NCBI RefSeq assembly: GCF_000332275.1
Contig: NZ_CM001776.1
Location: 4,400,008-4,464,007, forward strand
Source of the DNA: Synechococcus sp. PCC 7336
GTDB taxonomy: Bacteria; Cyanobacteriota; Cyanobacteriia; Thermostichales; PCC-7336
Direction: 5' to 3'
Length of the DNA: 64,000 nt
The position numbers were made by a program, and so were the translations under genes. Below the pieces are notes generated by a model. That model was given only the letters and a program-made list of their open reading frames with translations. It searched no databases and had not been told where the DNA came from. Below are positions 10,553-18,318 of this stretch, piece after piece (position 1 is the first letter of the stretch; every line of letters starts with the position of its first letter).

Positions 10553-12271
10553 TTAAAACAGGAAGTAGCGCTGGGCCATCGGCAGCACTGCGGCTGGCTC
10601 GCAGGTGAGCAGTTCCCCGTCAGCGCGGACTTCGTAGGTTTCGGGGTTGACTTCGATCTGGGGAGTGCCGGTATTGAGTTTGAGATTGGCTTTACCGATA
10701 TCGCGGCAGTTTTTGACGCCAAACACCGGACGCTGCAGGCCGAGGCGATCGGGAACGCCGTTTTCGATCGCCGCCCGCGACATAAAAGTCAGGCTAGTTT
10801 GTTCGAGGGCTTTGCCAAATCCGCCAAACATCGGTCGCGGGTATACCGGTTGCGGAGTCGGGATAGAGGCATTGGGATCGCCCATTTGGGCATAGGCAAT
10901 ACAGCCCCCTTTCAAAACCATTTCCGGTTTGACACCAAAAAAGGCAGGCTTCCAGATACAGAGGTCGGCGAGCTTGCCCACTTCGATGGAGCCAACAACA
11001 CTGTCGAGACCGTGGGCGATCGCCGGACAGATAGTGTACTTCGCGACGTAGCGCTTGGCTCGATGGTTGTCGTGGCGATCGCTATCCTGTGGCAATGGCC
11101 CCCGCTGGTCTTTCATCTTCGAAGCCGTCTGCCAGGTGCGCACAATCACCTCCCCGACGCGGCCCATTGCCTGCGAGTCAGAGGCAATAATGCTGAATAC
11201 CCCCATGTCGTGCAGGATGTCTTCGGCGGCGATTGTCTGGGGACGAATGCGGGATTCGGCAAAGGCAATGTCTTCTGGCACATCCTTGCTGAGATGGTGG
11301 CACACCATCAACATGTCGAGGTGTTCTTCGATCGTGTTGACAGTAAAGGGGCGGGTGGGGTTGGTGGAACTGGGCAGGACGTTAGGCTCGCCAGCAATAC
11401 GAATGATGTCGGGGGCATGCCCGCCCCCTGCCCCCTCGGTGTGAAAGGTGTGGATGGTGCGTCCGTTAATGGCGGCGATGGTGTCTTCGACAAATGCCGA
11501 TTCGTTCAAGGTATCGGTGTGGATGAGGGCTTGAATATCGTAGCGATCGCACACAGCCAAACAGGTATCGATAACAGCGGGTGTGGAGCCCCAGTCTTCG
11601 TGCATTTTGAGACCGCAAGCCCCCGCTTCCACCTGTTCCGTCAGCGCGTCGGGCAAGGCACTGTTACCTTTGCCAAAAAAGCCGAGATTGAGGGGAAACG
11701 CTTCAGCCGCTTGAAACATCTTGCCCAGATGCCAAGCACCGGGGGTGCATGTCGTGGCATTAGTCCCCGTGGCCGGCCCCGTGCCGCCGCCGAGTAGTGT
11801 GGTCAAGCCCGAGGCAATGGCAAACTCGCACAGTTGCGGACAAATGAAGTGAACGTGGGTATCCAGACCGCCTGCCGTCACAATCGTATTTTCCCCCGCG
11901 ATCGCCTCGGTCGAGGCTCCCACCACCATGCCCGGAGTAACCCCGGTCTGAATGTTGGGATTGCCCGCTTTGCCAATCCCGACGATATAGCCGTCTTTAA
12001 TGCCGATATCGGCTTTGACAATCCCCCACCAATCGAGAATCAGGGCGTTGGTAATGACCAGATCGAGTGCGCCATTGGCACGAGTGGCCGTAGGGGACTG
12101 TCCCATGCCGTCGCGAATGGTTTTACCGCCGCCAAATTTGACCTCTTCGCCATAGGTGGTGAAATCCCGTTCTACCTCGATAATAAGAGAGGTATCGGCC
12201 AACCGCAGGCGATCGCCCACGGTCGGACCGTAGGTGCTGACGTACTGGCGGCGCGGAATTTCGAGAGTCAT
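10553..12271 (-). CDS. ureC: Urease alpha subunit
   Basis: A 572-residue catalytic subunit of the nickel urease, which hydrolyses urea to ammonia and carbamate. The carbamylated bridging Lys is in [12 protein letters not shown], nickel-binding His in THVHFICP and [21 protein letters not shown], and the flap His in MVCHHLSKD. Length is standard. No ureA, ureB or accessory ureDEFG genes are near, so the urease genes are dispersed, as in some other cyanobacteria. I looked upstream for a GTA-N8-TAC NtcA site and found none. Confidence 0.97.
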
Positions 12272-12782: not shown

Positions 12783-12800
12783 CCGTATAATAAGATACGG
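12783..12800. promoter_or_regulatory. Palindrome in a divergent intergenic region
   Basis: CCGTAT-AATAAG-ATACGG forms a perfect 6-bp inverted repeat with a 6-base AT-rich spacer. It lies between the minus-strand gene starting at 12739 and the plus-strand gene starting at 12907, so it could be an operator for either. No regulator is identified. Confidence 0.35.
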
Positions 12801-12906: not shown

Positions 12907-13281
12907 ATGCTTATCCTCAGTGCAAACAGAGTCCAAGCCTTCCCCGCTCACTTGCCCTGGGGAACCGAAGCAGTCGTGCAAGTCGAAGGCCGGATCTATC
13001 TGGCTTGGGCTACATTCGAAACTCGTGACGAAGCGATATCTGCTGGTTCCCAACTCAAGAGCGAAGGGGAAAGTTGCCTTCTAGTTCGAGCCCGCGATCG
13101 CTTCACGGTATGGCAAGCTGCTTCCAAAAAGATTCAGGCCGAGATCCTCGGCTCTTCAGAAAACGTGGCGGTATTTCGGGGCAGACCGTTCGATCCTTCC
13201 CAAACCCCAGACACAGCAGCCGATTCAGCAACGATCGAAAAGATTCGGTTTCGCGGTCGGAAGATTGCCCCAGACGTATAG
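12907..13281 (+). CDS. Small protein with C-terminal FRGR motifs, paralog 1
   Basis: A 124-residue soluble protein of unknown function. Its N-terminal ~80 residues (MLILSANR..., VVQVEG, ISAGSQL, CLLVRARDRFTVWQAASKK) align with the next gene, so the two are paralogs. The tail is linker-like and carries two short motifs, AVFRGRPFD and IRFRGRKIAPDV. The motif resembles the YRG core of DUF4278, a small cyanobacterial repeat family, but this relation is inference. Start ATG 12907. Confidence 0.6.
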   Translation: MLILSANRVQAFPAHLPWGTEAVVQVEGRIYLAWATFETRDEAISAGSQLKSEGESCLLVRARDRFTVWQAASKKIQAEILGSSENVAVFRGRPFDPSQTPDTAADSATIEKIRFRGRKIAPDV

Positions 13282-13617
13282 CCGACCCTCTGTCGCAGGT
13301 CACAGTTTGGCGATCGCGGGTGCAATACCTCCTCCCGGATCTGCGCATTACGAGTCAACAGCCAAGTTGTCGTAGATGGTGTGCTCGAAGTCGCGCCATC
13401 AAAAAATGCATAACCCGATCGCCTTCCAGAGATATAAACTATTGAACTATTTAATCCGCATTTAGGTTTGATAAAGTACGCTTCACAGTTTGAAGTTGCC
13501 CTGCTGATGAGATGCTTCAGTCAAGTCACAGCAGGAGATTGCCTTATCAGTTACCGATTGCGAAATGACCGTAGGGATAACGCATTCAAGCGAACTCTTT
13601 CTTTCTGGATAGGTGCC
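13282..13617. other. Intergenic region between the two FRGR paralogs
   Basis: No gene is convincing here. The right part is AT-rich (ATATAAACTATTGAACTATT near 13432-13452) and may contain the promoter of the second paralog. The frame of the second paralog is open back to 13468, but that extension has no resemblance to the first paralog. Confidence 0.4.
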
Positions 13618-14082
13618 ATGTTTATTCTCAGTGCAGATCGACTCAATATTTTGTCTGTAGACATGACTGAGCGCAGCGCAAAAGTGCTGCAAATTCAAGG
13701 GCATTGGTTTATGGATCGGGAAGCCTTCAGCAGTCTCAACGACGCTATTCTGGCCTGCCGTCGCCTGCTCGATCGAGACGCAGTTTGCATTCTGGTGGAC
13801 GAAGGCAATTGCGTCAGCCTGTGGCAAAAACTCTCCAACAGCATGTACTCGAAGCTAGTCACCGCTATTTCGGCGATCGCCACCGAAGCACCCCAGCCCG
13901 ACCCAAACGCTGCACCCATCAGCCGACAAACTCACTTTCGCGGCAGAGCCGTCGATTCCGGCACGAGCAAATCACTCCAGTCCAAAACCTTCGAGTTTCG
14001 GGGTCACAAAGTCTTATCCGATCGCGCTGAAGAGGGCGATCGCAGCCAGCAAAAGATCGCTTTTCGGGGTCGACAGGCTTAG
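13618..14082 (+). CDS. Small protein with C-terminal FRGR motifs, paralog 2
   Basis: A 154-residue protein. I chose ATG 13618 because MFILSADR then lines up with MLILSANR of the preceding paralog; an upstream in-frame start (13468) would add 50 unmatched residues. Conserved positions include the Q-x-x-G block, the AI-A---L helix, CILV and LWQKLS. The tail has three spaced motifs, THFRGRAVD, FEFRGHKVL and IAFRGRQA, the last at the very C-terminus. Function unknown. A strong terminator follows at 14218. Confidence 0.65.
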   Translation: MFILSADRLNILSVDMTERSAKVLQIQGHWFMDREAFSSLNDAILACRRLLDRDAVCILVDEGNCVSLWQKLSNSMYSKLVTAISAIATEAPQPDPNAAPISRQTHFRGRAVDSGTSKSLQSKTFEFRGHKVLSDRAEEGDRSQQKIAFRGRQA

Positions 14083-17727: not shown

Positions 17728-18318
17728 TCAGCCAATGGGACGGCCCCGATACATGAGGCGAGGTTTGGGGGGAGTTTTTGCAACAGCGGCAGAGATAGGC
17801 TTGGTCTCTGAAGTGGGGGGAACTGTTTCTGGAGCTTTTTCTTCAAATGATTGAGGTCGATCGGAGGTAGCCTTTGCAGATTTTCGTTTTGGCAATACGG
17901 CCTCTAACGCGGTGCGATCTAAAGAAATGCTGCTGGTAGAAAGTTCGAGAACCCGCTGCAGAGCACTGCACAGCTCGCTCAAACTGGTGGGATCGGCGAT
18001 TAAGTCCGAGGCTCCTTGCTGTATAGCCCATCGACGCTCCACCTCCGCAATCGGGCGTTCTGCGTGATTGGTCAAGACAATGGGGAGAGTTGGAAATCGA
18101 TCGCGACACTTGCGGCTGACTTCATAGGGATTGAACTGTCCGCTGCTGATATCCAGCAGAACAGCATCGGGAGAAACTCGGCCCAAGAGATCGAGCATGT
18201 CGCCCTCGGTCGTTTCGACAATTGTAGATACCCCTTGCGATGCCAGAGCAGTTTTCCACAACCATTTTTGTTGTTTGGAACTATGAATGACGAGAATCGT
18301 TGTTGCATATTTCGGCAT
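17728..18318 (-). CDS. Atypical receiver-domain protein with YRGRPIG tail
   Basis: 196 residues. Residues 1-125 form a receiver-like domain with the likely phospho-acceptor Asp in AVLLDISSGQ and Thr in IVLTNHA, but the first acidic pair is replaced (ILVIHSSK) and the conserved Lys of K-P is replaced (LIADPTS), so ordinary phosphorylation chemistry is doubtful. A low-complexity linker (~130-185) leads to the terminal motif RLMYRGRPIG, similar to the FRGR tails at 13.2 and 14.0 kb. No output DNA-binding domain is visible. Confidence 0.7.
   Translation of the reverse strand: MPKYATTILVIHSSKQQKWLWKTALASQGVSTIVETTEGDMLDLLGRVSPDAVLLDISSGQFNPYEVSRKCRDRFPTLPIVLTNHAERPIAEVERRWAIQQGASDLIADPTSLSELCSALQRVLELSTSSISLDRTALEAVLPKRKSAKATSDRPQSFEEKAPETVPPTSETKPISAAVAKTPPKPRLMYRGRPIG

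Follow-up and report, generated by a model that had tools for sequence, protein, structure and literature searches.

The aromatic-Arg-Gly motif carried in the tails of two paralogous small proteins (A and B) and of an atypical receiver protein of Synechococcus sp. PCC 7336 is real and conserved, is common to unrelated domains, and is related to the unit repeated in DUF4278. The three proteins lie in the window, that is, the whole stretch of 64,000 nucleotides that was analysed (positions 4,400,008-4,464,007 of a single-contig genome of 5.07 Mb), in which GCGATCGC was present in 115 copies. The features concerned, in window coordinates, are as follows.

12907-13281, + strand: protein A, 124 aa (ORF; paralog of B; same layout in relatives)
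13174-13185, + strand: FRGR motif 1 of A (FRGRPFD), residue 90, from the sequence
13249-13260, + strand: FRGR motif 2 of A (FRGRKIAP), residue 115, starting 10 residues before the end, from the sequence
13618-14082, + strand: protein B, 154 aa (ORF with corrected start)
13936-13947, + strand: FRGR motif 1 of B (FRGRAVD), residue 107, from the sequence
13996-14007, + strand: FRGH motif 2 of B (FRGHKVL), residue 127, from the sequence
14062-14073, + strand: FRGR motif 3 of B (FRGRQA-stop), residue 149, from the sequence
17728-18318, - strand: atypical receiver protein, 196 aa (PF00072, 28.0 bits; relatives; family alignment)
17740-17751, - strand: YRGR motif of the receiver (MYRGRPIG-stop), from the sequence; kept at the C-terminus in many relatives

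Protein A consists of an N-terminal domain of approximately 75 residues followed by a tail with two FRGR motifs, and protein B of the same type of domain followed by a tail with three motifs, the spacing of the motifs in both tails being 20-25 residues. The start of B is almost certainly the ATG at 13618 and not the mechanically assigned TTG at 13468, because the ATG aligns with A and with relatives. The two proteins were found to be paralogs with 25% identity (E 6e-13). All five tail motifs named in the preliminary description, as well as the MYRGRPIG end of the receiver, were found in the sequence where it had placed them, and its view of the A and B motifs as repeats in the tails of paralogs was borne out. 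The tails, which it had called disordered, do look so: in a model of B made from a two-sequence alignment, of low confidence (mean pLDDT 43) and too weak for a fold search, the only regular structure predicted beyond residue 88 was two isolated bridge residues. Among solved structures, none was found with a relationship to either B or a DUF4278 protein.

Relatives found by name were all cyanobacterial, and the nearest comparison genomes (2.8-4.4 Mb) belonged to another family of the same order, referred to below as the sister family. There, the N-terminal domain seen in A and B (MVILDYSEAD...) has a conserved ACR and a Trp, and it is followed by tails with motifs such as TYRGQPL, TYRGQKV and YFRGVKV. 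Tails of more distant A/B relatives carried FRGQVV, YRGQVV and YRGTDY, or KYRGVHF and QYRGAAY, or TYRGTET and MYRGQRV. Across the A/B family the motifs were kept over linkers that could not be aligned. The overall consensus of the motif is roughly [LRM]-x-[YF]-R-G-x-x-[VYI]; a hydrophobic or basic residue at position -2 of the aromatic residue and V, Y or I as the third residue after Gly were common to all classes of carrier. The sister family also has another set of paralogs, with at most one copy, sometimes degenerate (LFYRGxxPYNALQA). In one cyanobacterial family the A/B N-terminal domain was also observed as tail-less proteins of approximately 80 residues, several per genome (L046-L048, L131-L144). 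The N-terminal domain of B gave a weak match, at 15.5-16 bits, to just the first 78 positions of the Npun_F0813 family and DUF7469 (NF045621, PF24276), and B fell well short of membership (15.5 bits against a cut-off of 27, and 16 bits against one of 210). The DUF7469-like proteins in L043 and L049 differ from B in their C-terminal half and lack a YRG tail.

The protein at 17728-18318 is, judged by its sequence, a member of an atypical receiver family of cyanobacteria in which many proteins end in YRGxxY. It resembles the PF00072 receiver domain in belonging to the same family by sequence and in keeping Asp56 and Thr83 in the family alignment. In contrast to that domain, it lacks the acidic pair of the first strand and the conserved Lys and scores slightly below the PF00072 cut-off of 30.2 bits, so that by these marks it is not a canonical response regulator receiver. 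It has instead a family signature of its own, Ser27-Gln28, Asn63-Pro64, Glu94..Trp97-Ala98 and Gly102-Ala103 (SQ - NPY - ERRWA - GA), and a Pro/Ala/Ser-rich linker leading to the C-terminal YRG motif. Matches to the receiver were found in 56 of 194 genomes at E <= 1e-12. Among the 30 receiver loci read, the window's own included, 26 had [FY]RG in the last 12 residues, and the remaining four include two misread frames. Typical ends were RRRYRGSSY, VRRYRGVVY and RLMYRGRPVD, and several receivers had a second, internal copy. In a receiver set reached by another route, only 5 of 20 ended in the motif and the other 15, more divergent, had no tail; divergent members without the tail included fusions at the end of GGDEF-EAL-FHA proteins. 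Such relatives were observed at the C-terminus of GAF/PAS-GGDEF-EAL-FHA-like proteins in L311, L316 and L319, and a protein with two tandem receivers ending LMYRGRPVVR and LMYRGQPVIR was seen at L293:550-2427. No conserved gene neighbourhood was seen around the receivers in the loci read, where the receiver stands alone, and a conserved operon was therefore rejected. In relatives, A, B and the receiver were not seen close together as they are in this genome, and no receiver relatives were present in viral contigs.

When the tails of A and B were shuffled, the observed two or three motifs were reached in 0 of 20,000 trials each. The tails of 19 A/B-family proteins held 41 motifs compared to 0.37 expected by shuffling, and receiver tails held 45 compared to 0.32; the receiver class includes a few L218 motifs (through L288), which are also within the 45 versus 0.32 and whose omission leaves the picture unchanged. 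A search for the C-terminal pattern against random expectation, proposed in the preliminary description, gave an excess in the window but not beyond it. In the window, [FY]RG[RH] occurred in the last 15 residues of 3 of 63 proteins compared to 0.016 expected (P ~7e-7), a value that is post hoc because the three proteins were picked for the motif. Outside the window, 659 proteins were called by a home-made gene caller on a genome sample of 40 stretches of 20 kb, a stretch placed over the DUF4278 genes being excluded from the test. The last 15 residues of these proteins gave 1 match to [FY]RG[RH] (0.17 expected) and 5 to [FY]RG (2.8 expected), which is no significant excess. DNA patterns for FRGR or YRG closely before a stop were likewise not in excess over a reversed-pattern control. 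The supposition that the motif is more frequent at C-termini across the proteome thus failed once the named proteins and those with DUF4278 were set aside, and a proteome-wide C-terminal tag was rejected on the protein sample and the DNA patterns alike. Since there was no enrichment outside the window, the motif is a feature of particular families. A general YRGxxY-stop tag was also rejected: in 10 genomes, among the places read, coding matches were found only in receivers and the A/B family, and the other fetched matches lay in short, evidently non-coding frames.

The resemblance to the YRG core of DUF4278, which the preliminary description had noted, was upheld by profile comparison. A/B-type tails (a profile that includes L218) matched DUF4278 at 94% (E 1.7e-7) in profile-profile comparison, and receiver tails matched A/B-type tails and DUF4278 at 79% and 53%, respectively. 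Against the curated PF14105 cut-off of 25.3 bits, the tail of an A/B relative in L034 scored 31.3 bits, a second A/B-like protein in L246 scored 28.2 bits, and a different small protein scored 29.6 bits in L237 and 29.0 bits in L218. A, B and the receiver themselves gave no match to the DUF4278 model up to E 10. DUF4278 matches were found in 99 of the 116 cyanobacterial genomes searched. In this genome two tandem short DUF4278 genes were observed at genome positions 3,038,888-3,039,420 (L050/L076); the units of the first are YRGH, FRGH and FRGH-stop and those of the second FLGS, FHGR and YRGH-stop, and a glutamine riboswitch lies upstream of the first.

Further carriers of the motif were found elsewhere. 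Small proteins of a third class (L218, L237, L294) had 2-4 copies after a different N-terminal domain. In one genome, a PilJ-like chemotaxis receptor (L290:7559-10147), whose cytoplasmic N-terminus holds two YRG motifs before the first membrane helix, was observed in an operon of CheY-, CheW-, receptor and CheA-like genes. Only 1 of 29 further related chemotaxis receptors carried any motif, and a link to pilus chemotaxis was rejected on this count.

We propose that a single cyanobacterial short linear motif, which would be the unit repeated in DUF4278, is present in all three tails, those of A, B and the receiver. Disordered linkers with one to four motifs would tether small folded modules, namely the N-terminal domain of the A/B family, the atypical receiver and, in other cyanobacteria, the third small domain, and the motifs would, we infer, dock these modules by avidity onto one shared acceptor surface. 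DUF4278 proteins with the same motifs, at least some of them controlled by a glutamine riboswitch, might bind or compete for that surface. The idea of a common partner for YRG tails is plausible on the sequence evidence, and the fuller claim, that the tails serve different small domains as multivalent docking peptides for a single acceptor, we judge to stand at about even chances. That the repeats travel together among inhibitors, receivers and small domains fits a docking peptide acting by avidity. Against this reading count the tailed receivers of G021, a genome with no DUF4278 match, as well as the absence of a DUF4278 match in A and B, the divergent receivers with no tail, the lack of a conserved neighbourhood in the receiver loci read, the closeness of the three genes in this genome alone, and the absence of glutamine riboswitches from A, B and the receiver. 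As a guess, the acceptor could be glutamine synthetase or its inhibitor complex: in the sister family an IF7 domain is fused to YRG repeats, whereas here the two are encoded by separate genes. We would call it a long shot that cyanobacteria have a single YRG peptide code. In it, small sensor and receiver modules would gather through their YRG tails on a hub, possibly glutamine synthetase or a complex built around it, and DUF4278 proteins under glutamine control would occupy these sites as well or form bridges between them. If true, such a code would link nitrogen status to signalling.

The conserved peptide could instead have its own partner in each family, or act within the molecule, for example on its own N-terminal domain, the DUF4278-like repeats having been borrowed or having arisen repeatedly. 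There was no common neighbourhood or co-occurrence, tailed receivers were found without a detected A/B member (e.g., in G036) as well as without DUF4278 (G021), and a three-residue motif is easily evolved twice. However, flanking preferences agree between the classes and the tails score as DUF4278 by profile, and we consider separate partners rather unlikely. Aromatic-Arg-Gly units might also be generic stickers for RNA, for an anionic membrane or for each other in condensates, with no specific protein acceptor. Aromatic and Arg repeats within low-complexity spacers would suit such a role, as would the two motifs before the first membrane helix of the chemotaxis receptor from a single genome. 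A sticker would not be expected to have a nearly invariant Gly with mostly Y, V or I as the third residue after it, a low copy number, or a single C-terminal copy kept in many receivers, and among 29 further chemotaxis receptors related to that one just a single protein had a motif, all of which makes this reading distinctly improbable.

Chance, in the sense of a short motif singled out post hoc in three proteins that lie close together, agrees with the absence of genome-wide C-terminal enrichment. It is scarcely credible in view of the shuffle tests and of a motif kept over unalignable linkers in many genomes, and is already contradicted because the motif is conserved in relatives. The preferred reading is that of docking peptides for a shared acceptor, at the even chances given above.

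Upstream of A, a perfect NtcA-type GTA-N8-TAC box, GTATAATAAGATAC, was observed at 12785-12798 (+ strand); it contains TATAAT and starts 122 bases before the gene. In a pattern search, 6 GTA-N8-TAC boxes were found in the window compared to 3.1 expected, and the box was not conserved upstream of A/B relatives. It is a possible candidate control site, and NtcA bound at this position would be expected to repress A. Glutamine riboswitches were looked for at A, B, the receiver and a set of A/B relatives, and none was found. Control of A and B by NtcA or a glutamine riboswitch was rejected, since there was a single exact NtcA-like box, before A only, and no riboswitch; beyond that one unconserved box, there was no direct sign of nitrogen control of A, B or the receiver. 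At 11821-12120 (+ strand), a segment antisense to the urease alpha gene was observed to match the 5' ureB small RNA of Rfam strongly (110.9 bits); the match may reflect just the conservation of the protein-coding strand.

Among known systems, the nearest is that of DUF4278, which occurs in regulators of nitrogen assimilation. It makes up the N-terminal half of IF17 (gifB), an inactivating factor of glutamine synthetase; inhibition does not require this half, although it adds to stability and strength, and it is mainly with DUF4278 genes that glutamine riboswitches are associated (PMC6316151). In the literature searched, only DUF4278/IF17 papers were relevant. Sister genomes encode DUF4278 and the IF7 inhibitor domain as a fusion. 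Here, two IF7-like domains were found by profile outside the window, in separate frames of 72-74 aa apart from the DUF4278 genes, an arrangement that amounts to a split of the sister-family IF17 architecture. A, B and the receiver are not IF17 proteins, as no IF7-profile match was found in the window. Like DUF4278, which has two or three of them, A and B have (Y/F)RGxx(Y/V) units approximately 20-25 residues apart, two and three, respectively, and the receiver has one. In DUF4278 proteins the first unit is N-terminal and the spacers are partly conserved, whereas in A, B and the receiver the units form C-terminal tails on other domains. The YRG tails give short peptides for a partner search. 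Helping IF17 is the one role known for the YRG repeats of DUF4278, and the occurrence of the unit as a movable C-terminal tail on the receiver and A/B families suggests that DUF4278 may itself be an array of docking peptides.
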